38,365 nucleotides of DNA from Cryomorpha ignava (GTDB taxonomy: Bacteria > Bacteroidota > Bacteroidia > Flavobacteriales_D > Cryomorphaceae). Shown one piece after another: positions 6,111-23,553 of this stretch (position 1 is the stretch's first letter; the number at the start of each line of letters is the position of its first letter). Under the pieces are notes generated by a model that saw only the letters and a list, made by a program, of their open reading frames with translations, was not told the origin of the DNA and searched no databases. Made by a program: the position numbers and the translations under genes. Location of the stretch: positions 1 to 38,365 of the forward strand of contig NZ_JAAGVY010000044.1 in the NCBI RefSeq assembly GCF_010686655.1, written 5' to 3'.

Positions 6111-8306
6111 TTGAAAGACCTTTTACTTATCACGCCGCCATTTACACAATTAAATACGCCCTATCCCGCAACGGCTTATTTAAAAGGGTTTTTGAACACC
6201 AGGAATATTGGTGCCTATCAAATGGATTTGGGCATTGAGGTTATTCTGGAGCTGTTTTCAAAAAAAAGCTTTGAATTTATTTTCGCGGAAGCGTACCAAA
6301 ACAATAAAATAACTTCGGAAAATTGCCAGCGAATATACGCCTTAAGAGCTGATTATTTAGTCGTTTTAGATGACGTTATTCAGTTTCTGCAAGGAAAGAA
6401 CTTAACCTTTGCACGTCAGATTTGCACGGGAAATTTTCTACCCGAAGCCTCGCGATTTGAAACTTTAGATGATTTGGATTACGCATTTGGCTCAATGGGA
6501 CTTCAGGATAAGGCAAAACACCTGGCCACCTTGTATTTAGAAGATCTTTCAGATTTTATTGTGGAATGTATTGATGCCAATTTTGGCTTTAGCCGATATG
6601 CGGAGCGTTTGGGGATGAGTGCCAATTCCTTTGATGAGTTGTATGCAAATATGCAAACCGATACCACGTATATCGATACGATTACCTTGCGAATTCTAGA
6701 CGCCCAACTAAAGGCAATACAGCCTAAATTGGTCTGTTTTTCGGTTCCCTTTCCGGGAAATTTGTATAGCGCATTTAGATGTGCTCAATATATCAAAGCC
6801 AATTATCCCGATCTTAAAGTGGCGATGGGAGGGGGGTTCCCCAATACAGAATTGCGCTCGCTAAAAGATGTACGGGTCTTTGAATTTTTTGATTACATCA
6901 CTTTAGATGATGGCGAATTGCCCATTGAATTGTTGGCTCAACACGTTTGCGGAAACGGAGAAGCCGGAACGGATGCTTTTAAACGCACCCTTATTTTGGA
7001 AAGTGGAGAAGTACTTTATAAAAATACTTCCACCAAACCAGATTACCGTCAAAGTGAAATTGGTACGCCCGATTATTCCGATCTAAAACTTGATCAATAT
7101 GTTTCGGTGATTGAAATTGCCAACCCCATGCACAGTCTTTGGAGCGATGGGCGGTGGAATAAACTCACCATGGCGCATGGCTGTTATTGGGCAAAATGCA
7201 CTTTTTGTGATGTATCGCTTGATTATATCAAGATTTATGAGCCAATAACTGCCAAACTATTGGCAGACCGAATGGAAACATTAATCGCTCAAACCGGCGA
7301 AACAGGTTTTCATTTTGTTGACGAAGCTGCGCCGCCTGCCTTGATGAAGGCTTTGGCTTTGGAGATTTTAAAACGAAAGCTCACCCTTACCTGGTGGGCG
7401 AATATTAGATTTGAGAAAAACTTCACCCAAGACCTTTGCTATTTGCTAAAAGCATCTGGCTGTATCGCCGTTTCCGGCGGACTGGAAGTAGCTTCTGACA
7501 GGTTGTTGAAATTGATTGATAAGGGTGTAACCGTGGAGCAAGTAGCTCGCGTGACCCGCAATTTTACCAATGCCAATATTATGGTGCATTCGTATTTAAT
7601 GTACGGTTACCCCACCCAAACCGTTCAGGAAACGGTAGACAGCCTGGAAATGGTGCGTCAGCTTTTTGAAGAGGGAGTCTTGCAATCAGGTTTTTGGCAT
7701 CAGTTTGCCTTGACTGCCCATAGCCCGATAGGTTTGGCGCCGGCTGATTATGGTATTAATCCCATTTACAAAGACATCACTTTTGCCAATAACGATGTAG
7801 ATTTTACGGATCAAACTGGCATTGACCATACCCAATTTAGCTATGGCTTAAAAAAGTCGCTCTTTAATTTTATGCATGGCATTGGGTTTGAATTGCCGCT
7901 TCAAGATTGGTTTGATTTTAAAATTCCAAAAACCTTAATCGGGAGCGATTACATACTAACCTGTTTAGAAGCGGTACCGAATTTTTCCGTGCAGTCAAGC
8001 GCCAAAGTGGTTTGGCTTGGTGGAATGCCATTGGTAGTGGAGCAAGCCAAAACCAAGAAAGGCATCACCTGGCAGAATCTTCAAATGACTTTTCATGATA
8101 AGATAGAATCGTTTCAAATCACTGTAGAAAAAGACAAAGGTGAATGGCTATTAAACGCCTTGCCAACCTTGTCGCCATCAGGGGATAAGCTCCACACTTT
8201 CGGGCAACTCAAGGGAGATTTCGAAACCCGTTTTGAAAATTTTGAACTGTTTTGGAATTCCAAACCGATGCAGAAGTTGAAGGATTTTGGGTTGCTGGTT
8301 GTTTAG
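6111..8306 (+). CDS. B12-binding-domain radical SAM protein
   Basis: 731 residues starting at TTG 6111; a TAG lies directly upstream in frame, and LLLITPPFTQLNTPYPATAYL matches family N-termini. An N-terminal half with a Rossmann-like cobalamin-binding segment (LVCFSVPFPGN, VAMGGGFPN) precedes a radical SAM core. The cluster motif GCYWAKCTFCD places cysteines at residues 358, 363 and 366, that is CX4CX2C rather than the common CX3CX2C. Downstream segments (FHFVDEAAPP, SGGLEVASDRLLKLIDKGVT, YLMYGYPTQT) are typical of the B12-radical SAM class. The reaction is unknown. A degenerate copy of its last about 75 codons lies at 10728-10965. Confidence 0.85.
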   Translation: MKDLLLITPPFTQLNTPYPATAYLKGFLNTRNIGAYQMDLGIEVILELFSKKSFEFIFAEAYQNNKITSENCQRIYALRADYLVVLDDVIQFLQGKNLTFARQICTGNFLPEASRFETLDDLDYAFGSMGLQDKAKHLATLYLEDLSDFIVECIDANFGFSRYAERLGMSANSFDELYANMQTDTTYIDTITLRILDAQLKAIQPKLVCFSVPFPGNLYSAFRCAQYIKANYPDLKVAMGGGFPNTELRSLKDVRVFEFFDYITLDDGELPIELLAQHVCGNGEAGTDAFKRTLILESGEVLYKNTSTKPDYRQSEIGTPDYSDLKLDQYVSVIEIANPMHSLWSDGRWNKLTMAHGCYWAKCTFCDVSLDYIKIYEPITAKLLADRMETLIAQTGETGFHFVDEAAPPALMKALALEILKRKLTLTWWANIRFEKNFTQDLCYLLKASGCIAVSGGLEVASDRLLKLIDKGVTVEQVARVTRNFTNANIMVHSYLMYGYPTQTVQETVDSLEMVRQLFEEGVLQSGFWHQFALTAHSPIGLAPADYGINPIYKDITFANNDVDFTDQTGIDHTQFSYGLKKSLFNFMHGIGFELPLQDWFDFKIPKTLIGSDYILTCLEAVPNFSVQSSAKVVWLGGMPLVVEQAKTKKGITWQNLQMTFHDKIESFQITVEKDKGEWLLNALPTLSPSGDKLHTFGQLKGDFETRFENFELFWNSKPMQKLKDFGLLVV

Positions 8307-8579
8307 CTTCAGAGGTTTTTCTTACTTCACATAATTGATATTTCTTCTGAACAAGATGTCCTGGCCAGAGTAAAACACGTATGAATGTTTCGGGTTAGTT
8401 TATGGCTGGCAAGGTGTCATTTCAGTAATTGGTTATATTTAGCGCAAAGATTGCAGATTAATGATCCGGATTTAAATGCCATTTCCAGATTCATAGTCGA
8501 AGGAAGGGTTGAATAAAGAAGATGCGGTTGAATTTTATCAAGCCAATGGCAGAAATTCTTGAAACATAATAATTTGACA

Positions 8580-10703
8580 ATGAAATACGCTTTAATATTC
8601 CAAGTTGCATTCCTATTGTTTATAGCAGTAGGATGCAATGAGAATAAGCATGAACTTACTGTTAGTTCGCCGGCTAAGATCAATACGGTTGAATTTCACC
8701 TTTCTGAAAACGGACAGCCTTTTTACCTGGTTTCTCATAATGGAAATGTTGTAATCGATTCGTCCTACATCAGTTTTGATTTTAAAAATCAGGAATCTCT
8801 CAAAGAGAATTTCAAGGTGGTGAATACTACGGCAAGTTCGTTTAATGAAACCTGGGAAATGCCCTGGGGGGAGCAGCGAAAAGTAATAAATCACTACAAT
8901 GAATTAATTGTTGAACTCGAAGAGAGCATTGTCCCAAATCGCAGGCTTAACCTGTATTTCAAAGCCTTTGATGATGGAATTGGTTTTTGCTATGAATTTC
9001 TTGAGCAAGAGGGGCTTGACAGCTTAATCATAATGGAAGAAAATACGGAGTTTCAACTTATGGGCGACCATATGGCATGGTGGATACCTGCTGACTGGGA
9101 TATTTATGAATACCTGTTTAATACCACTTCTATTTCTGAAATTAACGCTTTTGATCATATTGATGGCCCCGGACTTGGCCACACCACTATTCGGGAAAAT
9201 GCCGTAAATACTCCGGTTACGATGCGCACGAGCGATGGCATACATTTGAGCATCCACGAAGCGGCACTTCTCGATTATGCAGATATGACATTAAAAGTAG
9301 ATACCGTTAATTTATGTTTGACAAGCCAGTTGGTTGGATCTGACAGGCTTGGATATAAAGTGAAGCGAGCCCTGCCATTTAAAACGCCGTGGAGAAGCAT
9401 TCAAATAGCAGATAAAGCAACAGAATTAATCGAATCAAAGCTCATCGTGAATTTAAATGAACCCAATCAATTGGGTGATATTAGTTGGTTTAAACCCAAA
9501 AAATACATGGGTATTTGGTGGGAAATGCACATTGATAAAGGATCTTGGGATTATGGAATGACGATGGATCCAGAATCGGGGAAATGGATTGATACAGGAA
9601 AAGCACATGGCCGCCATAGCGCGACTACCGAAAATGCAAAAAGATATATTGATTTTGCTTCGGAAAATGGAATAAAGGGTGTTTTGGTAGAAGGTTGGAA
9701 TACAGGCTGGGAAAAATGGATCGGTTTTGAAGACAGAGAAGGTGTATTTGACTTTGTGACGCCTTATCCCGATTATGATATTGAAGAAGTGGTAAGATAC
9801 GCAAAGGAGAAGGGCGTGGAAATTATAATGCATCACGAAACTTCAAGTGCACCGGTAACCTATGAGCAACAAATGGATACGGCATATCAGTTGATGCAAA
9901 GTTTGGGAATTCATGCCGTGAAGTCGGGATATGTCGGAAAAATAATTCCAAAAGGCGAGTTTCATCATGGCCAGTGGATGGTTAATCATTATCAAAAAGC
10001 ATTGGAGAAAGCAGCTAAATATGAGATTGCCGTAAACGCACATGAACCCATCAAGCCAACCGGACTCAGACGTACATTTCCGAATGCTATATCGAGAGAA
10101 GGCCTAAGAGGTCAGGAATTTAATGCATGGTCGCCGGATGGTGGCAATCCGCCGGAGCATATTTCTATTGTAGCTTTTACAAGAATGCTGGCAGGGCCAA
10201 TAGATTTTACACCCGGTGTTTTTGAAATTTCGATACCGACAAAAGAAAACAATCAGATTAATACCACGTTGGCACAGCAACTTGCGCTATATGTTGTAAT
10301 CTATAGCCCCATTCAAATGGCTTGCGATTTACCTGAAAACTATGAAAACCAACCTGCCTTTCAGTTTATAAGAGATGAGGGTGTAGATTGGGAACAGACA
10401 CAGGTTTTAGCTGGAGAAGTAGGCGATTTTGTAGTCATAGCCAGAGAAGAAAGAGAGACAGGGAGTTGGTTTGTAGGAGGAGTTACGGATGAAAATGCAC
10501 GGACAGTATCCATTAATTTTGATTTTTTGGAAGTCAATAAAACGTATTTGGCTACCATCTACAGAGACAACGATGAAAGCCATTTCAAAACGAATCCGAC
10601 TTCAATAGAAATTGAAAAAGTAGAAGTTGTGAAAAGCTCGACCAGAGAATTGACAATGAAAGAAGGCGGCGGATTTGCAATAAGTCTTATTGAAGAGGAA
10701 TAA
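8580..10703 (+). CDS. Glycoside hydrolase family 97 alpha-glucosidase (SusB-like) lipoprotein
   Basis: ATG at 8580 is preferred to the upstream TTG at 8559 because it gives a clean lipoprotein signal (FLLFIAVGC with Cys at residue 20) and a 707-residue protein. The N-terminal beta-sandwich and the (beta/alpha)8 barrel (IKGVLVEGWNTGWEKW onward) are those of GH97. Three glutamates fall at residue 420 (HHETSS), 489 (NAHEP) and 513 (GQEFN). Their spacing of 69 and 24 equals that of E439, E508 and E532 in Bacteroides SusB, which indicates the inverting alpha-glucosidase subtype rather than the retaining alpha-galactosidases. It acts in the periplasm or on a membrane surface. No susC/D genes adjoin it. 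It lies between the radical SAM gene and a broken copy of that gene's 3' end. Confidence 0.92.
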   Translation: MKYALIFQVAFLLFIAVGCNENKHELTVSSPAKINTVEFHLSENGQPFYLVSHNGNVVIDSSYISFDFKNQESLKENFKVVNTTASSFNETWEMPWGEQRKVINHYNELIVELEESIVPNRRLNLYFKAFDDGIGFCYEFLEQEGLDSLIIMEENTEFQLMGDHMAWWIPADWDIYEYLFNTTSISEINAFDHIDGPGLGHTTIRENAVNTPVTMRTSDGIHLSIHEAALLDYADMTLKVDTVNLCLTSQLVGSDRLGYKVKRALPFKTPWRSIQIADKATELIESKLIVNLNEPNQLGDISWFKPKKYMGIWWEMHIDKGSWDYGMTMDPESGKWIDTGKAHGRHSATTENAKRYIDFASENGIKGVLVEGWNTGWEKWIGFEDREGVFDFVTPYPDYDIEEVVRYAKEKGVEIIMHHETSSAPVTYEQQMDTAYQLMQSLGIHAVKSGYVGKIIPKGEFHHGQWMVNHYQKALEKAAKYEIAVNAHEPIKPTGLRRTFPNAISREGLRGQEFNAWSPDGGNPPEHISIVAFTRMLAGPIDFTPGVFEISIPTKENNQINTTLAQQLALYVVIYSPIQMACDLPENYENQPAFQFIRDEGVDWEQTQVLAGEVGDFVVIAREERETGSWFVGGVTDENARTVSINFDFLEVNKTYLATIYRDNDESHFKTNPTSIEIEKVEVVKSSTRELTMKEGGGFAISLIEEE

Positions 10704-11147: not shown

Positions 11148-14100
11148 CTAGTTTTTAAAGACTATAACTGATTCTGTGAGTTCAGTTCCGTTCCATTCAA
11201 TAATGTACATCCCTCTCTCAAGTGTGCTCAGGTCTAAGCTCACTTTATCTTCAATTTCGGGCGTAGTGAAACGAAACATTTCCTGACCAGAAACATTCAT
11301 TACCCTGATCATATCTCCTGCTTTCATTTCGGGAGCTTTCGCAAGATAAACCCAATCATTTGTTGGTGATGGGTAAGCGAGAAGTGTTTTATCCTTTGTC
11401 TCTTCTATAACTAGATTATTCTCGAAGACCTCACCCGTGATCACTTGTTGACAGGTAACTTCATTGCCGCAGGCATCCGTTGCTACCCAGGTACGAATAA
11501 TCTCAAAACAGTTGTCTGAAGGATCCGTTGGTCCTTCGCCTTCAGGACAATCGAGAAAACCGTGATCCTGGTTTCCATCAACGAAATTTTCATTGATGCC
11601 AGCCAAAACACTTATCAGTTCCGACCCCGTGTATGGACTCGCACATCCACCGAAATAATTTTGGACTATTTCTAAAATCTGATTCACAGTTTGACCTGAA
11701 AATTCTCCGGATGCTACCGTCAACTCACCTAGATTAACTGCCGATTCGCTATAGTTCGGATCTGCATAATCGAATCCAACACTCAATGTTGCGGCTACCA
11801 ATTGCCCCGCTAAAGTCGATTTGAAACCAGTAGGGTCTGTTAAGTCAGATGAGAGCCTTCGGGTGGATCCACCGCTTGGCAGAAAATTCTGTACCGCCTC
11901 GCTACTCGTGAGGGTCAAGTTGAAGTCGCAACCTACTACCAGACCATTTGGAAATGCTTCTGCAAAATGGGCATCTCTGTATGATCCGGGATTGCTTCCA
12001 TGACTTGTTGTACCCCAGCCCCCTTGCGTCTGAGTTCTAAAAGTACCGCAATCGTCATCACAGCAATTTTCGGTTCCTGAAGTACCTCCGGAAATTTCTA
12101 CAATGCTATCAGAATATGAGATTGAAATCTCCGAACAACTTCCTGCACCACTAGGAAAACCTGTAGAAGATGGATCCGTGCTTGCATCACATGCCACAGT
12201 AATATCCTCCGGACAAAGTATTTGAGGTAAGCCACCTTCTTCAAATTCAATGGTTTGAACACATGATCGAGCATTGCCACATGCATCTGTAGCTGTCCAG
12301 GTTCGCAAAATGGATGCAGGACATGCATCAAAAAAATCTACATCGGAATAATCCACGCTTACGTCATTACAAAAATCGACGGCAGTGGCCATCCCCAGAG
12401 ATTCGGGGCTAGTATCAGTACCACAAGAAATCAAAGTATCTGCCGGACAGAAAACCACTGGCAACATATTGTCAAAAAAAGAAATCTGCTGATTACAAGT
12501 AGCTACATTGCCGCAATAATCGGTTGCAATCCAGGTGCGAATAAAAGTGGGTGAACAAGTTCCCGAAACCTCTCCATCTTCATAAGTGAGTGACACATCT
12601 AGGCATTGATCTGTTGCGATCGCCATTCCGGTATGTATAGGCTTCGCATCTGAATATGCACATGACACAGTTATGTCAGCCGGACAAGATATTGTTGGAG
12701 CTTCTTCGTCAATAACGGTAATAATCTGAATACATGTTGCCAAATTGTTACAAGCATCTGCTGCTTTCCATGTTCTTACAAAGCTCATCGGACAATTGCC
12801 ATACATTGCACCATCGGTATAAGTAAGACTTACAGATGAACATTCGTCAGTTGCTGTAGGTGTTCCTGTAAATTCCGGATCAATTCCAGATTCTCCACAA
12901 GTAACTGTGGTATCGTTTGTGCATGTTATAGAAGGAGGATTATTATCTTCAAACATGATTCGTTGAATACAATTTGATACGTTACCACATGTGTCTACGG
13001 CAGTCCACGTTCTTTGTATGGTAGGCGGACATGTATTGATATTCCTTTCACTATCCTCATAGGTAATTGTTACATGCGTTCCGCTGCAATTGTCAATGGC
13101 TTCAGCAAGTCCAATATCATCCGTACCATAGTTTTCATCGCCACAAGCGAGCATAACATCTGCCGGACATATGAGCTGAGGTCCCTGTGTATCCTGAATG
13201 GTAATATTTCTATACAGGTTGCTGATATTGCCACATTCGTCTACAGCCGAATAAATCCTGAAGTAGTTGGTTCGGCAACCTGCTATACTTATACTTTCCG
13301 TAAATGTCACATCGAGGGTATCTCCGCTGCAATAATCAATCGCATAGGCGGCGGCTGGTGGTGGAGCCTCTCCGCACTGAAGATTTGAACCTGGCGGCAC
13401 TCCAATAATTACAGGCCCTGTATTATCAGTTTTAGTAATAATTTGATCTGCACTGGTGCTATTCCCACACGCGTCAGTGGCTACCCAGGTGCGTGTTATG
13501 GTTTGAGTACATCCCTCCCCAGAAGGAACACCATCTGAATATGTGAGAGTTACCGATGAACACACATCCGTAGCGTTGGCACTTCCCGTAAAAACAGGAT
13601 TCATAGAAGAACCGCAATTAATGCTAATGTCATTCGGAACTACCAATGCAGGTGGGGCATTGTCTTCAACAAAGACGGTTTGATAACAAAAAGAACTGTT
13701 TCCACAATTATCAACTGCCATCCATGTTCGTGTAAACTGCCCGCAGTTTGATGATGGTCCGTTATAATAGGAAATAGCTACATCCGTATCGCAGTTGTCA
13801 GTTGCCGCGGCAAAAACATCTGGTTCTATAACAGGACTGCAATTTGCATATTGCGGGTCCGGACATGTGATTATAGGGGCAACGTTGTCTATAACCTGAA
13901 ACGTTTGTTCACAGGTTACTGTATTTTGACCATCTGAAACCGAATAGACACGCGTTAGGTTAAAGGGACTGCTAGCACATCCGTTACCAATGGTAATTTC
14001 TGAAACTTCAATTGTGACGTCTCCACAATTATTCGAATAAGAAATAAGGCTTTCGTCCGGATCTGGTATGCTCGACACACAAGCGAAGGATTGATTCTGG

Positions 14101-15038
14101 AGATTGGAACAATCTATAGTCAGCTCACAGCACTCCGGACTATTGCCGGTAACTGTTGAAATTGAACATGTAGATTGACTATCGCTCTGTGAGTCGACAG
14201 AAAATGAATATGAATCATCTTGTGCATATGAGAGTTCAAGCATCACTTCGTTGACACTTTCTTCTTCTTCAGGATTACCAAAACAGAACTCAAAACCATT
14301 TCCGCTGAGCGCATTTGGCGCCAAAAGGGTATAACAACCATTCGTACCTGAAAGATAAATTTGTACAGTATAATTCCCATCCTGAGTACAAACCGCAGTG
14401 ACTTCTCCAAGTGAGATCGAACATGGATTCCCTTCGGGAGGACAATCCAGAAAACCGTTGTCTGTAATACCATCAACGTAATTTTCATTGATAGATGACA
14501 ATACTGATGTGAACTGCGACGAAGTGTAAGCATTCGAACATCCACCTAAATGAGCGTTTGCCAAAGCTACAACCTCCGTTACAGATTTGCCAACAAACGT
14601 TCCCTGAGCCACTATTTGATCTCCCAGATAGGTGCTGGATAGGGCAAAATTTTGATCTGCCTGATCAAATGCCAAACTCAGCGTAATAGCGAGTAAGTGT
14701 CCGGCCAAAGTATTGTTGTAATTGACCGGATCAATCAAACTCTCGCTCAGTACAGACGGAGTACCTCCTGATGGAAGAAAAGCTTCGACTGCAGCGGTTG
14801 TGGAAAAGGAAATTGAATAATCACACCCGATCGTTACCCCATCCGGGAAAACATCAGAAAAATGGGCATCGCGATAAGCCCCTGGATTGTTTCCATTGGC
14901 TGTTGAGCCCCATCCGCCGGGCGTTTGGGTTCGAAATTGATCACAATCTGCTCTTATTTGAGCTTTGCAATCGCTTGACTGAACTTGAATTACTAGAAAA
15001 AGGGGAGTTAGGCAAATTAATCGTAGATTTCTAATCAT
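11148..15038 (-). CDS. Secreted HYR-repeat protein with a duplicated FRTQT domain and T9SS sorting domain
   Basis: 1296 residues. Signal peptide about 1-27. Domain A (about 32-200) begins FRTQTPGGWGSTANGNNPG and ends ENYVDGITDNGFLDCP. A linker follows, then about nine HYR-like units of 75-80 residues from about 304 onward, each with cysteines and the signature RTWxATDxCGN (units near 304, 384, 459, 538, 616, 698, 777, 856 and 934). Domain B (about 997-1165) is a second copy of domain A and interrupts the last HYR unit, whose end (IRTWVATDACGNEVTCQQVI) resumes at about 1180. The C-terminus (about 1219-1296, LLAYPSPTNDWVYL to ESVIVFKN) is a type A T9SS sorting signal. Surface export and adhesion are likely by family; ligand unknown. 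A possible promoter lies at 15160-15167. Confidence 0.88.
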   Translation of the reverse strand: MIRNLRLICLTPLFLVIQVQSSDCKAQIRADCDQFRTQTPGGWGSTANGNNPGAYRDAHFSDVFPDGVTIGCDYSISFSTTAAVEAFLPSGGTPSVLSESLIDPVNYNNTLAGHLLAITLSLAFDQADQNFALSSTYLGDQIVAQGTFVGKSVTEVVALANAHLGGCSNAYTSSQFTSVLSSINENYVDGITDNGFLDCPPEGNPCSISLGEVTAVCTQDGNYTVQIYLSGTNGCYTLLAPNALSGNGFEFCFGNPEEEESVNEVMLELSYAQDDSYSFSVDSQSDSQSTCSISTVTGNSPECCELTIDCSNLQNQSFACVSSIPDPDESLISYSNNCGDVTIEVSEITIGNGCASSPFNLTRVYSVSDGQNTVTCEQTFQVIDNVAPIITCPDPQYANCSPVIEPDVFAAATDNCDTDVAISYYNGPSSNCGQFTRTWMAVDNCGNSSFCYQTVFVEDNAPPALVVPNDISINCGSSMNPVFTGSANATDVCSSVTLTYSDGVPSGEGCTQTITRTWVATDACGNSTSADQIITKTDNTGPVIIGVPPGSNLQCGEAPPPAAAYAIDYCSGDTLDVTFTESISIAGCRTNYFRIYSAVDECGNISNLYRNITIQDTQGPQLICPADVMLACGDENYGTDDIGLAEAIDNCSGTHVTITYEDSERNINTCPPTIQRTWTAVDTCGNVSNCIQRIMFEDNNPPSITCTNDTTVTCGESGIDPEFTGTPTATDECSSVSLTYTDGAMYGNCPMSFVRTWKAADACNNLATCIQIITVIDEEAPTISCPADITVSCAYSDAKPIHTGMAIATDQCLDVSLTYEDGEVSGTCSPTFIRTWIATDYCGNVATCNQQISFFDNMLPVVFCPADTLISCGTDTSPESLGMATAVDFCNDVSVDYSDVDFFDACPASILRTWTATDACGNARSCVQTIEFEEGGLPQILCPEDITVACDASTDPSSTGFPSGAGSCSEISISYSDSIVEISGGTSGTENCCDDDCGTFRTQTQGGWGTTSHGSNPGSYRDAHFAEAFPNGLVVGCDFNLTLTSSEAVQNFLPSGGSTRRLSSDLTDPTGFKSTLAGQLVAATLSVGFDYADPNYSESAVNLGELTVASGEFSGQTVNQILEIVQNYFGGCASPYTGSELISVLAGINENFVDGNQDHGFLDCPEGEGPTDPSDNCFEIIRTWVATDACGNEVTCQQVITGEVFENNLVIEETKDKTLLAYPSPTNDWVYLAKAPEMKAGDMIRVMNVSGQEMFRFTTPEIEDKVSLDLSTLERGMYIIEWNGTELTESVIVFKN

Positions 15039-18740: not shown

Positions 18741-19892
18741 TTGAAAACAGATAACTCAAAGTACGATTATATCATAGCAGGGTCGGGCTGCGCCGGGCTT
18801 AGCCTCTTATATGGTTTGCTCAATGATCCGATCTTGAAAGACAAAAAGATTCTGGTACTCGACAAGAATCGGAAAAACAAGAACGACAGAACCTGGTGCT
18901 TTTGGGAAATGAAAGCGGGCCCTTTTGAAGAAGTAGTGTTTCACCGATGGAATACGCTCGAGTTTCTAGATGAAAGCTTTACAAAAAAATTTGAACTCGA
19001 AAAGTATAGCTATAAAATGATTCAGGGAATTGACTACTATAATTTCGTGCTGAATCATGCCAAAGGCTTTGAGAATGTGGTTTTTAAATGTGAAAGCATT
19101 CAGTCAATAAAGTCGGATAGTGACCGGGCATTTGTGGAAACGGATCAGTCCACATATTCAGGAACCTACGTTTTTAATTCCACCAGATTATTCCATCCTG
19201 AAATGAATACCGAAAACTCACTTCTACAGCACTTCGAAGGTTGGGTAATTAAAGTCAAAAACCCGGTATTCGACAGCGATGTAGGCACCCTAATGGATTT
19301 TAGATTGAGCCAAAAGAATGGAACAACCTTCATGTATGTACTGCCTACGAGCCCAACCGAGGCTCTCGTGGAATATACCTTGTTTAGCAAGAAAGTACTC
19401 GAAAAAGAAGTGTATAAAACCGAGCTGGAAAAATACATTCAGGACTATCTCAAAATCGACTCGTATGAAATAACCCACAAGGAATTTGGGATTATTCCGA
19501 TGTCAACTGCTTCTTTTTCAAGAAATACTGAAAAGCGAATCATCAACCTTGGCACTGCCGGAGGTCAAACAAAAGCAAGCAGCGGATATACCTTTCAGTT
19601 TATTCAGAAAAACACATCAATCATCCTTGAAAATTTGAGGAATGGCAATTTCCCAAATCAGTCATTAAGCTTTCGCGACAAAATGTATCAGTGGTATGAT
19701 CGCACTTTGATAGAAGTCATTCTTTCGGGCAAGATGGAAGGGAAAGAGATTTTTTCTGTAATGTTTCGAAAGCTGAATCCTGAAATGATTCTGGCCTTTC
19801 TGGCGAATGAAAGCACTTTTCTGGAAGAGCTTCAAATAATGAACAGCCTGCCAAAAGGGCCATTTTTTACTTCGGGAATTAAGCAGTTATAA
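18741..19892 (+). CDS. crtY: Lycopene beta-cyclase (CrtY type)
   Basis: 383 residues starting at TTG 18741. An N-terminal FAD/NAD-binding fold (DYIIAGSGCAGLSLLYGLL) is followed by NDRTWCFWE, characteristic of bacterial CrtY, and by GTAGGQTKASSGYTFQF near residue 275. CrtY cyclises the ends of lycopene to beta-carotene at the membrane. No other carotenoid genes are in the window, so the rest of the pathway must lie elsewhere. No strong promoter was seen in 18621-18740. Confidence 0.9.
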   Translation: MKTDNSKYDYIIAGSGCAGLSLLYGLLNDPILKDKKILVLDKNRKNKNDRTWCFWEMKAGPFEEVVFHRWNTLEFLDESFTKKFELEKYSYKMIQGIDYYNFVLNHAKGFENVVFKCESIQSIKSDSDRAFVETDQSTYSGTYVFNSTRLFHPEMNTENSLLQHFEGWVIKVKNPVFDSDVGTLMDFRLSQKNGTTFMYVLPTSPTEALVEYTLFSKKVLEKEVYKTELEKYIQDYLKIDSYEITHKEFGIIPMSTASFSRNTEKRIINLGTAGGQTKASSGYTFQFIQKNTSIILENLRNGNFPNQSLSFRDKMYQWYDRTLIEVILSGKMEGKEIFSVMFRKLNPEMILAFLANESTFLEELQIMNSLPKGPFFTSGIKQL

Positions 19893-20689: not shown

Positions 20690-22054
20690 ATGTCAAAGCA
20701 GTATAAGCCATCTACCCCAAAGGGAACACGCGATTTTTTGCCCACAGTGGTGCAGCGAAGAAATTATATTTTTGACACCATAAAAACGGTTTTTGAACAT
20801 TACGGCTATCAGCCCATCGAAACTCCGGCAATGGAAAATCTCGAAACCCTTACCGGGAAATATGGTGAGGAAGGTGATCGGTTGATTTTTAAGATTCTGG
20901 CTAGAGGCGAGAAATTGAATAAAGCATTAGCCGATTTCAATCAAACCAATTTGACAGAGGAAGCCCTTCGTTACGACCTCACAGTGCCATTCGCCCGCTT
21001 TGTAGTTCAACACCAAAATGATTTGGCTTTTCCTTTCCGCAGGTATCAAATTCAACCTGTTTGGCGTGCCGATCGTCCCCAAAAAGGGCGTTACCGCGAA
21101 TTTTTTCAATGCGATGCCGATGTGATAGGTACAGACTCGCTGCGCTGCGAAGTCGAAATTGTGCAAATGCTCGACAATGTGTTCACAAAACTCGGCCTTC
21201 CAGTTGAGATAAAAATCAACAATAGGAAGCTGCTCACTGCTCTCGCCGCTTATGTGGGTGAGGCAGATAAACTTATTCCACTCACCATTGCCATTGATAA
21301 GCTCGATAAAATGCCACTCGATAAGGTGCTGGCAGATCTTGATAATCAGGGCTTTTCAGCGGAAGCGCAAACCAAATTAAAAACAGTACTGGAAGCTGCA
21401 CGTGACCTTACAGACAGCGCCGCATTGATGGACAAAATGGAGCAAGTCTTTGCAGGCAATGCCGATGGCGAAAAAGGACTGGAAGAGTTACGCTACGTCT
21501 TCTCAAAAGTGAAAACGCTTGGTCTCGAAACGTCCAAATTGCGTTTTGATATGAGCCTGGCCCGTGGATTGAACTATTACACCGGAGCGATTTTTGAAGT
21601 TGTTCCACGCACCGATGAGCAGGTGGGAAGTATCTCGGGTGGTGGCCGATATGATGATTTAACCGGAGTGTTTGGTATGCCCGGCATGTCAGGAGTGGGC
21701 ATTTCTTTTGGTGCCGACCGCATTTACGATATGCTCGAAGCCCGCGATGGTTTCCCCAAAAATGAAACTGCCGGAACAGAACTACTCTTTGTAAACTTTG
21801 GCGAAACTGAAGCAGATTTTTGCCACGAATTGCTTGGTTCTATCCGTAAAGCCGGTATTCGCGCCGAGCTATACCCCGATGCCTCAAAAATGAAAAAGCA
21901 AATGAAGTACGCCAACGATAAGCAAATTAAGTTTGTAGCAATGGTGGGAGAAGATGAGATGGCAGCCGATTCAGTTACTTTAAAAAACATGGAATCGGGT
22001 GAGCAAGAGCTGATTGGAAAGAATGAACTTATATCCAAACTAAAAATGTTATGA
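20690..22054 (+). CDS. hisS: Histidine--tRNA ligase
   Basis: 454 residues, the usual length. Class II synthetase motifs are present: KGTRDFLPT at the start, motif 2 FRRYQIQPVWRADRPQKGRYREFFQCD, and the HisRS-specific GGGRYDDLTGVFG with LARGLNYYTG before it. The C-terminal anticodon-binding domain starts near residue 360. It charges tRNA-His in the cytoplasm. Its stop overlaps the hutH start by four bases, making it the first gene of a four-gene operon. Confidence 0.96.
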   Translation: MSKQYKPSTPKGTRDFLPTVVQRRNYIFDTIKTVFEHYGYQPIETPAMENLETLTGKYGEEGDRLIFKILARGEKLNKALADFNQTNLTEEALRYDLTVPFARFVVQHQNDLAFPFRRYQIQPVWRADRPQKGRYREFFQCDADVIGTDSLRCEVEIVQMLDNVFTKLGLPVEIKINNRKLLTALAAYVGEADKLIPLTIAIDKLDKMPLDKVLADLDNQGFSAEAQTKLKTVLEAARDLTDSAALMDKMEQVFAGNADGEKGLEELRYVFSKVKTLGLETSKLRFDMSLARGLNYYTGAIFEVVPRTDEQVGSISGGGRYDDLTGVFGMPGMSGVGISFGADRIYDMLEARDGFPKNETAGTELLFVNFGETEADFCHELLGSIRKAGIRAELYPDASKMKKQMKYANDKQIKFVAMVGEDEMAADSVTLKNMESGEQELIGKNELISKLKML

Positions 22055-23553
22055 TCCACGCCATTTCAAATAACCACCTTAGCATTGAGCGTGTTGCAGA
22101 AATAATCGCTGAAAATACCACTTTAGAACTATCAGCAGAAGCGCGTGAAAAAATTCAGTCGTGCCGTGATTTTCTAGACGATAAAATAGAACGCTCCGAA
22201 AAGCCGATTTACGGTATCAATACAGGTTTCGGGTCGCTATGCGGCAAGTCTATTGATCGCAATAGTTTGGAGCAGTTGCAAAAGAACCTGGTGATGAGTC
22301 ATGCTTGCGGAACAGGCAGCTTAGTGCCTCAAGAGCTGGTGAAACTGATGCTTTTGCTAAAAGTGCAAGGACTATCTTACGGGCACAGCGGCGTAACTTT
22401 AGCTACTGTAGAGCGACTGATCTGGCATTTTAATAACGATGTGCTTCCTGTAATATACGAGCAGGGTAGCCTTGGCGCTTCGGGCGATTTGGCTCCGCTT
22501 GCTCATTTGGCTCTTCCGCTTATAGGGCTGGGCGCAGTATATGTTGACGGGAAGATTTCATCATCAAGCTCTATTTTAGAAAAGCATGGCTTAAAACCCA
22601 TCGCACTTCGATCTAAAGAAGGGCTCGCCCTCTTAAACGGCACACAGTTTATGAGTGCCTACGGAGTGCATTCGCTCATCAGGGCTGGTCATCTTTTAGA
22701 TGCGGCAGATTTAATTGCTTCTGTTTCTCTTGAAGGCTATGATGGGCGTTGCGAGCCCTATAACCATCAGGTGCACGCCATTCGCCGCCACAGCGGACAG
22801 ATAAAAGTGGCTGAAAATATTCGAAAGGTATTGGCTGACAGTAAAACCTGGTTTGCCGATAAGGTTCACGTTCAAGACCCGTACAGCTTTCGCTGCGTGC
22901 CACAGGTACACGGGGCTTCACGCGATGCCATTGCACACATAAAGAGCGTTTTTGAAAACGAGATAAATGCAGTAACCGATAACCCAACCGTTTTTCCCGA
23001 TTCGGATGATATAATCTCTGCCGGGAATTTTCACGGACAGCCACTTGCCATTTCGCTCGATTTTCTGGCAATAGCCATGGCCGAGATTGGAAGCATTTCC
23101 GAAAGGAGAACCTATAAACTCATTGGCGGCGAACGCGGATTGCCTCCATTTTTAGTAGCCAACCCCGGCTTGAATTCCGGTTTTATGATTCCGCAATATA
23201 CCGCCGCCAGCATAGTGAGCAAAAACAAGCAACTTTGCACACCTTCGTCGGTAGATACCATAGACTCTAGCAATGGCCAGGAAGACCATGTAAGCATGGG
23301 CGCCAATGGGGCAGTAAAAGCCGCCGAAGTAATAAATAACATAGAAACTGTACTGGGAATTGAGCTGCTTAATGCTATGCAAGCCATTGAGTTGCGTGGG
23401 ATGGAAGGGATGGCCACTGCCGTAAAAGCCATTCATGCTGATTACCGAAAACGTGTAGATTTCCTTATTGAAGACTGCGAATTGTATCCATTTATTTTAA
23501 AATCAAAAGAATTTGTCTCAAAACTCAATACAGCCAAGTGGCTTAGTGCCTGA
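22051..23553 (+). CDS. hutH: Histidine ammonia-lyase
   Basis: 500 residues. It converts histidine to urocanate and ammonia, the first step of histidine breakdown. The Ala-Ser-Gly triad that forms the MIO prosthetic group is at residues 143-145 (GSLGASGDLAPLAH), with the GINTGFGSL start loop and a later SSNGQEDHVSMG segment. The start overlaps hisS (ATGA). Other hut genes are not in the window. The 3' end overlaps the next ORF. Confidence 0.95.
   Translation: MIHAISNNHLSIERVAEIIAENTTLELSAEAREKIQSCRDFLDDKIERSEKPIYGINTGFGSLCGKSIDRNSLEQLQKNLVMSHACGTGSLVPQELVKLMLLLKVQGLSYGHSGVTLATVERLIWHFNNDVLPVIYEQGSLGASGDLAPLAHLALPLIGLGAVYVDGKISSSSSILEKHGLKPIALRSKEGLALLNGTQFMSAYGVHSLIRAGHLLDAADLIASVSLEGYDGRCEPYNHQVHAIRRHSGQIKVAENIRKVLADSKTWFADKVHVQDPYSFRCVPQVHGASRDAIAHIKSVFENEINAVTDNPTVFPDSDDIISAGNFHGQPLAISLDFLAIAMAEIGSISERRTYKLIGGERGLPPFLVANPGLNSGFMIPQYTAASIVSKNKQLCTPSSVDTIDSSNGQEDHVSMGANGAVKAAEVINNIETVLGIELLNAMQAIELRGMEGMATAVKAIHADYRKRVDFLIEDCELYPFILKSKEFVSKLNTAKWLSA

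Follow-up and report, generated by a model that had tools for sequence, protein, structure and literature searches.

Why should one predicted surface protein carry the same unnamed domain twice, once near its N terminus and once inside another folded unit, and what could such an arrangement do? The question is raised by an open reading frame in a 38,365-nucleotide stretch of Cryomorpha ignava DNA (the whole stretch analysed, hereafter the window), in which a single frame of 1296 aa (11148..15038, minus strand) carries both copies of what we call the FRTQT domain. The parts of the protein are given below.

11148..15038, minus strand: open reading frame, 1296 aa; predicted T9SS-type surface protein, with the same part arrangement in L006, L091 and L092
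14958..15038, minus strand: probable signal peptide, residues 1–27, read from the sequence only
14442..14945, minus strand: FRTQT domain copy A (C32–C199), near the N terminus, not nested
13917..14423, minus strand: linker from copy A to the HYR array, residues 206–374, poorly conserved (34–40% identity between orthologues)
12252..13901, minus strand: seven intact HYR (HYR_4C-like) units, residues 380–929
12093..12251, minus strand: N-terminal half of the split eighth HYR unit, residues 930–982; 24.1 bits alone, pLDDT 78–94 by block
11547..12050, minus strand: FRTQT domain copy B (C997–C1164), inserted in the HYR loop; largely helical as modelled
11418..11513, minus strand: C-terminal half of the split eighth HYR unit, residues 1176–1207; 36.3 bits alone, strands in the model
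11181..11375, minus strand: T9SS C-terminal sorting domain (Por_Secre_tail; PF18962, TIGR04183), residues 1222–1286

The whole protein matched HYR_4C (PF23237) in Pfam at 71.1 bits (cut-off 27) over seven stretches, and a degenerate HYR-like stretch lies near the end of the linker. The C-terminal sorting domain scored 31.8 bits with PF18962 (cut-off 27) and 23.1 bits with TIGR04183 (cut-off 23). By this domain the product is probably a T9SS type A cargo, for which secretion and anchoring are predicted. RTX repeats were not found in the protein; Pfam at E values up to 1 gave HYR_4C and Por_Secre_tail only.

Two copies of one domain

The FRTQT domain is approximately 168 aa long, and copies A and B are 50% identical over 175 residues with an E value of about 4e-61, well beyond a chance resemblance. 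The original prediction had put the copies at residues 32–200 and 997–1165; we found them at 32–199 and 997–1164, in agreement to within a residue. Three full-length relatives in other genomes (L006, L091, and L092) keep the same order of parts, which rules out an assembly artefact or a chance arrangement.

The orthologous FRTQT copies are 49–62% identical, with pN values of 0.29–0.36 and pS values of 0.77–0.87; the latter indicate that synonymous change is near saturation. The earlier description of both copies as strongly conserved therefore holds only in part. The linker and the C-terminal domain are less well conserved than either copy, and the HYR array is about level with them. The very constant positions are T, GGW, FPxG, LPxG, D98, and N156. 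D98 is the sole acidic residue among columns at or above 85% conservation, and none of these columns is histidine.

The N-terminal cysteine is present in 104 of the 105 copies collected below and the C-terminal cysteine in 92 of 105, so constant a pair that covariation could not be assessed (Fisher p 0.12). Both members of an inner cysteine pair occur in 79 copies, neither in 25, and one alone in 1; this pattern is confounded by descent, because 21 of the 25 copies lacking the pair are the 21 copies from other classes. Disulfides may form between C997 and C1164 and within the inner pair.

Nesting of copy B in the eighth HYR unit

For scoring the two halves of the eighth HYR unit we used our own HYR profile, derived from 274 intact units, in place of the Pfam model. 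The halves gave 66.1 bits when joined, versus 24.1 bits (N-terminal half) and 36.3 bits (C-terminal half) apart, and these scores bear out the claim that copy B splits the last HYR unit. The placing in the last unit is correct here and in L006, L091, and L092. The preceding HYR unit is complete, and the T9SS sorting domain comes after the C-terminal half. The insert measures about 190 residues, and the corresponding loop is 7–12 residues long in the 274 intact units, which were chosen at 60–100 residues so that long inserts were excluded by construction. As judged from these alignments, copy B is nested in HYR unit eight.

Predicted structure of the nested region

The nested region was predicted with alignment A6; the MAFFT alignments A4 and A5 misplaced HYR parts across the insert and were left out. 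In the best AlphaFold2 model, the two HYR halves come together as a single Ig-like sandwich around the insert. This model stands alone among the five, with a mean pLDDT of 80.2 against 57–61 for the other four. Within it, the pLDDT by block is 78–94 for the HYR halves and 43–53 for the FRTQTQGGWG end of the insert. The FRTQT domain folded alone gave a mean pLDDT of 51.3, and a fold search with it returned two matches with Z values of at most 2.4. The fold of the insert is uncertain, because only one model of five is good, the FRTQTQGGWG end is of low pLDDT, and the lone domain reaches only the mean value given above. Copy B is predicted by that one good model to be mostly helical.

Structural matches in the PDB (VIA-align) extend from approximately residue 11 to approximately residue 281 of the model with 65–84 residues aligned, the skipped residues not being listed; this aligned length is approximately the size of the two HYR halves together. 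Ig, PKD, and cadherin modules were matched, the best with Z 7.5 and an rmsd of 2.7 over 74 aligned residues; it is the Ig part, not the insert, that fills the list. Foldseek with the nested model gave no match at an E value of 0.001 or below. Copy B was not predicted as a separate module between complete HYR units, and the flanking half-units are both confident. The split eighth unit is therefore modelled as one that closes from its two halves.

Search for a named domain

The original prediction knew no name for the domain, and none emerged here, as Pfam, NCBIfam, PHROGs, and PDB sequences were all without a trusted match. Pfam gave 0 families for copy B and scattered weak matches in 32 family members: CdiA_C_tRNase in 2 of the 32 (best E 0.0016, the lowest value overall), TMP_2 in 2, and eight other families in 1 each, which look like chance. 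No match over the cut-off was obtained for the 32 members with NCBIfam (best E 0.21), and the best E values were 0.24 with PHROGs (3 sequences) and 0.75 in a profile search of PDB sequences. A link to proteins with the motif TQG[FY]WKNH was rejected, since its DNA pattern turned up in none of the 198 genomes searched within the phylum.

The literature library searched, which mostly excludes subscription papers, held no text containing 'TQGGWG', none combining 'HYR domain' with 'type IX secretion', and none combining 'split domain', 'Bacteroidota', and 'adhesin'. No relative was found among viral contigs, and plasmids gave no match. A scan of genome contigs with a single sequence, which reaches close relatives only, gave 5 loci, all labelled as Bacteroidota groups; the profile search was confined to the phylum, and a range limited to Bacteroidota is not implied.

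Distribution of FRTQT copies

After 7 partial and 9 duplicate copies were dropped and several further matches without a locus were left out, 105 distinct FRTQT copies were obtained, none of which is 95% or more identical to another. Thirty-eight copies are nested in an HYR unit, two in an SprB unit (L043 and L049), and 65 are not nested, which indicates that nesting is not needed for the domain. Window copy B and L092 were first classed as 'other', since long linkers had broken their HYR match into two, and were reassigned manually to 'nested'. Nesting was found for 38 of the 44 copies with an adjoining HYR unit, and 35 of the 51 copies from the window's order are HYR-nested; 18 of the 105 copies adjoin an SprB unit but do not lie across it. 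Of 36 junctions, one (L069) fell at position 38, in a doubtful part of the alignment. On the tree the nested label must have changed 8 times or more, and a minimum of 3 of these changes are forced by well-supported branches.

Several small frames consist mostly of the FRTQT domain: L010 and L011 hold the domain and a sorting tail (the tail was scanned in L010 only), and L045 and L046 are short frames that appear lipoprotein-like by eye. In other classes of the phylum, the domain occurs in 21 frames from 19 proteins, two proteins being cut into two frames each. These frames carry a thioester domain (16), SdrD_B (17), and a putative ice-binding-like adhesive domain (7); the thioester company is found in those classes and not in the window's protein.

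The HYR loop as a proposed slot for guest domains

An open scan gave 51 split HYR units, 48 of which are broken at model positions 45–59 of 86, with breaks allowed at 16–70. The guests comprise 31 FRTQT domains, 13 members of a second family, 2 of a third, and 5 single domains; the guests other than FRTQT are under-counted, because the loci were chosen for holding the FRTQT domain. The scan did not pick up window copy B, L006, or L091. The split units come largely (46/51) from one related family, f3, and two of the guests are 97% identical (L123 and L124). The second guest domain, also unnamed, has 39 near-complete copies distinct at 97% and no detectable similarity to the FRTQT domain. With its preferred break position and its several guests in related proteins, the HYR loop appears to serve generally as a slot for guests.

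Proposed function and alternatives

The reading we favour, at about even odds (probability approximately 0.5), is a type IX-secreted adhesin that bears one head at the tip and another pointing sideways, on the plan of the 'split domains' in RTX adhesins. The proposal starts from what is read in the sequences: two copies, nesting, conservation of the nesting, a preferred loop, and several guests. A stalk of Ig-like HYR units would carry two heads of ~168 aa. Copy A, near the N terminus, would lie at the distal end of the stalk, and copy B would enter HYR unit eight between two of its strands and be held out sideways, while that unit would still fold from its two halves. C997 and C1164 could pin the termini of the domain together, making a cassette that fits a loop. 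We infer the surface exposure, the sideways projection, and the binding of a ligand.

Alternatively, the domain might be a structural module that stiffens, spaces, or protects the stalk, or makes neighbour contacts in a surface coat, with no outside ligand. Its recurrence beside stalk units of several types, including the 18 copies beside intact SprB units, is consistent with this idea, which we nevertheless regard as unlikely, since the domain makes up most of the small frames L010, L011, L045, and L046, where there is no stalk to space, and has adhesive companion domains in other classes. Cell-surface enzymes are common in Bacteroidota, and a catalytic domain presented to the solvent by nesting could use the constant T, GGW, FPxG, LPxG, D98, and N156 as a site; the lack of a trusted enzyme-family match, with D98 as the only conserved acidic column and no conserved histidine, makes a secreted enzyme improbable.

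Slightly less probable still is neutral accretion, in which an insertion-tolerant domain was copied into a permissive loop and has no selected role of its own. A loop that takes several guests without detectable similarity fits this possibility, as do the repeated changes of the nested label on the tree; against it, four species retain copies A and B in place, with pN at about 0.3 versus near-saturated pS and with better conservation than the linker and tail. A toxin-like effector on a surface protein is very improbable: the CdiA_C_tRNase matches (best E 0.0016, in 2/32 members at an E limit of 1) point that way, but 30 of the 32 members are without such a match, and the domain is present twice, in mid-protein or near the N terminus.

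Comparison with known systems

Excerpts of two reports describe RTX adhesins (AhLap from Aeromonas hydrophila, FrhA from Vibrio cholerae, and MpIBP) whose Ig-like 'split domains' project ligand-binding guests from the axis (PMC12077191, PMC10865825), and binding heads of giant RTX adhesins have been located by means of the split-domain rule (PMC12077191). The adhesin proposed here resembles these proteins, as far as the excerpts describe them, in its Ig-like stalk, a unit interrupted by a guest, completion of the fold afterwards, and several kinds of guest. It differs in that the host is HYR, the secretion signal is of type IX, RTX repeats were not found, and the guest is unnamed, predicted to be mostly helical, and a candidate binder only.

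More generally, we lean slightly towards the view that the HYR loop, and rarely the SprB loop, is a plug-in slot in Bacteroidota surface proteins, in which dissimilar and mostly unnamed guests would be exchangeable sideways heads on type IX-secreted stalks. If true, this would be a counterpart of the RTX split-domain adhesins with another secretion system and another host unit. Should HYR stalks follow the split-domain rule as well, it would offer a simple route to candidate binding domains in those large surface proteins of Bacteroidota that are poorly annotated. The FRTQT domain and the second guest are two unnamed families open to expression and testing.

Class II thioester domains (BaTIE and relatives) are described in part of one report as putative adhesins with an inserted beta-sandwich (PMC6194298). 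They share with the present protein a domain insertion in a surface-protein module, and a thioester domain accompanies 16 of the 21 other-class FRTQT frames; unlike in BaTIE as described there, where the sandwich is the guest, here the sandwich is the host, and Pfam matched no thioester domain in the window's protein. As in HYR_4C (PF23237) proteins, the host units pass the cut-off; unlike in those repeat proteins, the eighth unit is interrupted by the insert. In regard to SprB-repeat surface proteins, Pfam gave no SprB repeat for the window's protein, whereas the third FRTQT copy in the window's own genome sits between SprB-like units (L003/L004) and two copies elsewhere are nested in SprB units.

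Domain composition of the long ORF

The FRTQT domain, an unnamed domain of about 168 residues, occurs twice in the long ORF of the window, as the original prediction had stated (copy A, C32-C199; copy B, C997-C1164), and the two copies are 50% identical over 175 residues.

11148-15038, minus strand: long ORF, 1296 aa
Residues 380, 455, 534, 612, 694, 773 and 852 of the ORF: starts of seven intact HYR units, upstream of the eighth
Residue 930 of the ORF: start of the eighth HYR unit; first half to about residue 982, then copy B, second half from residue 1176

A Pfam search of the ORF at E up to 1 matched only HYR_4C units (PF23237, Ig-like stalk repeats; 71.1 bits, seven stretches) and a type IX secretion system (T9SS) C-terminal sorting domain (31.8 bits, cut-off 27); RTX repeats were absent at this threshold. 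The sorting domain was confirmed by NCBIfam (23.1 bits, cut-off 23). Elsewhere in the window, a glycoside hydrolase 97 gene (8559-10703) lies next to the ORF, and a Porphyromonas-type peptidyl-arginine deiminase gene (PF04371; 173-1330) lies at one end. The genes for a lycopene cyclase family protein (18741-19892) and an aromatic amino acid lyase (22051-23553) are close together, with a histidyl-tRNA synthetase gene between them.

Copy B inside the eighth HYR unit

The HYR halves on either side of copy B scored 24.1 bits (model positions 8-50) and 36.3 bits (56-81) separately. Joined, they gave a single HYR match of 66.1 bits, which bears out the claim that copy B splits the last HYR unit; with most linker residues kept, the best domain scored 46.6 bits.

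The split unit had been proposed for structure prediction, and AlphaFold2 was run on residues 925-1207, with rows from the window itself and from loci L005-L009 making up the alignment. The best model had a mean pLDDT of 80.2 and a pTM of 0.63, and the other four had mean values of 57-61, so the structural reading depends on one good model. In this model, the HYR halves flanking the insert were confident (pLDDT 78-94 by block), and the insert was mostly helical with pLDDT mostly 76-97. The linker and FRTQTQGGWG motif stretch (model residues 61-90) had pLDDT values of 43-53, and those of the linker following the insert were likewise low. The 50 structural matches listed were intact Ig-like, PKD and cadherin modules, with 65-84 residues aligned over a span from about model residue 11 to about 281; the best was SraP (4m00; Z 7.5, rmsd 2.7, 74 aligned). 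Because the aligned size is that of the two HYR halves together, we read the modelled halves as one sandwich formed from both sides of the insert. The Z scores below 8 show a common arrangement, not kinship, and the modelled fold of the insert is uncertain.

Guests of the HYR loop

We scanned the ORFs examined for HYR matches with an interruption of 60-600 residues, the break being allowed at model positions 16 to 70. The scan gave 51 split HYR units, 46 of them from one related family (f3), at loci chosen for FRTQT, and it missed copy B of the window. The break fell at positions 45-59 of 86 in 48 units and at 40.5, 44.5 and 60 in the others. In 274 intact HYR units of the profile set, chosen at 60-100 residues in length, the stretch 46-56 comprised 7-12 residues.

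Clustering of the guests (BLAST, E 0.001) placed 31 in the FRTQT domain, 13 in a second family and two in a third, and left five single.

Loci L112, L115, L116, L119, L121, L122, L125-L129 and L081: second guest family in the HYR loop, 13 of the 51 split units

In the ORFs examined, the second family (about 175-204 aa; motifs HAP, GFQLG, GANN and GGWF) has 39 copies that are near-complete and distinct at 97%. FRTQT and second-family profiles gave nothing below E 0.15 in either direction, and two second-family representatives and three other guests had no Pfam match below E 0.09. The second family shares a frame with the FRTQT domain in L039 and, on another contig, in the window's genome (L003/L004). 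Further guests, one pair and five single, were seen in or near the HYR loop at L113, L119, L121, L129 and L075; two of these have the breaks at 40.5 and 44.5.

Frequency of nesting

We took a census of 105 distinct near-complete FRTQT copies with flanks, counting a copy as nested when a single HYR match spanned its joined flanks. This was found for 36 copies; window copy B and the copy of L092, whose long linkers split the match, bring the HYR-nested total to 38. Another two copies (L043 and L049), from separate genomes of a single genus, are nested in SprB units. Copies adjoining SprB or HYR but not across it number 18 and 6, respectively; 15 are near the frame start, and 26 adjoin neither unit. 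The majority of FRTQT copies is not nested.

The HYR-nested copies are spread over 27 genomes or records, the majority belonging to one family, f3. They make up 35 of 51 copies in the window's order, 0 of 26 in other orders of the class (two being in SprB), 0 of 21 in other classes and 3 of 7 remaining named-record copies. On the tree the nested label required at least eight changes, and the well-supported branches make at least three of them necessary; nesting was therefore probably gained or lost more than once.

The FRTQT family

Thirty-two members align across about 178 positions, with T11, G13, G14, W15, P24, P37, G63, N156, N158 and C171 invariant. The searches matched the domain to no named family: copy B had no Pfam or NCBIfam match, the 32 members had scattered weak ones only, and PHROGs and PDB sequences gave nothing below E 0.2. 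Genomes with a match at E 0.001 numbered 21/296 in the phylum (single-sequence query), 31/395 in the class and 44/299 in the order (both by profile); the genome sets overlap, and each includes the window's own genome.

A third copy in that genome, on another contig, is 45% identical to copy B and flanked by SprB-like units. In L005, a divergent third copy (7672-8298; CTFTQGAWG; 108 bits to the family profile) lies upstream of a sorting domain in a protein that also carries two HYR-nested copies. L045 and L046 are short frames (217 and 242 aa) with little beyond the FRTQT domain, both lipoprotein-like by eye, L045 having no Pfam match. These and the small frame L010 show that the domain persists alone.

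In the census, 104/105 copies have a Cys no more than 14 residues ahead of the first conserved Thr, 92 have one at column 171 and 92 have both, a pair too constant for a covariation test (Fisher p 0.12). Of the inner pair, at columns 44 and 139, 79 copies have both residues, 25 have neither and 1 has only one; as all 21 copies from other classes are among those 25, descent accounts for much of this pattern. From sequence, both pairs are likely disulfides, and we read the outer one as a putative staple bringing the cassette ends together.

Conservation of the arrangement

A protein of L006 (MAG filed as Flavobacteriales, Ww168) shares 47% identity with the window's protein across 1288 aligned columns and has its two FRTQT copies at matching places. 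The same arrangement with both copies recurs in G651 and G668 (L091 and L092), two genomes from the same family as the window. In G649 (L093), a looser relative, one copy is flanked by SprB and HYR units, and another lies nested in the array. In the 105-copy tree, copy A of the window clusters with its counterparts from G651 and G668 (support 88/90), the same holds for copy B (88/83), and the L006 copies fall outside both groups. This clustering suggests, with moderate tree support, that the A/B duplication predates these three genomes. Strong conservation of both copies held in part: pN (0.29-0.36) was below pS (0.77-0.87) and below the pN of the linker (residues 206-374) and tail (sorting domain), but only similar to that of the HYR array.

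Proposed function and comparison with RTX adhesins

The ORF most likely encodes a surface protein whose stalk is Ig-like and which, judging by the C-terminal sorting domain, would be exported by T9SS. One head would lie near the N terminus, and a second would project sideways near the C-terminal, cell-proximal end. Weighing against this reading are the un-nested majority of FRTQT copies, the small frames with little beyond the domain and the uncertain fold of the insert.

Split Ig-like domains of RTX adhesins are described as projecting ligand-binding domains, and the split-domain rule served to locate such domains (PMC12077191, PMC10865825). The ORF shares this build, a guest in a split Ig-like unit of the stalk, but has no RTX repeats by Pfam and has a type IX C terminus; the likeness is therefore one of build, not of membership. 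This build has its precedent in RTX adhesins, whereas the host unit, secretion route and guest family all differ; within the paper library searched, no paper was found describing the HYR host unit, T9SS route or FRTQT guest in this build.

We put the probability that the FRTQT domain is a ligand binder at about one half. The domain keeps adhesin company in other classes of the phylum, where 21 frames (19 proteins) include 16 with a thioester domain, 17 with SdrD_B and 7 with a putative ice-binding-like adhesive domain.
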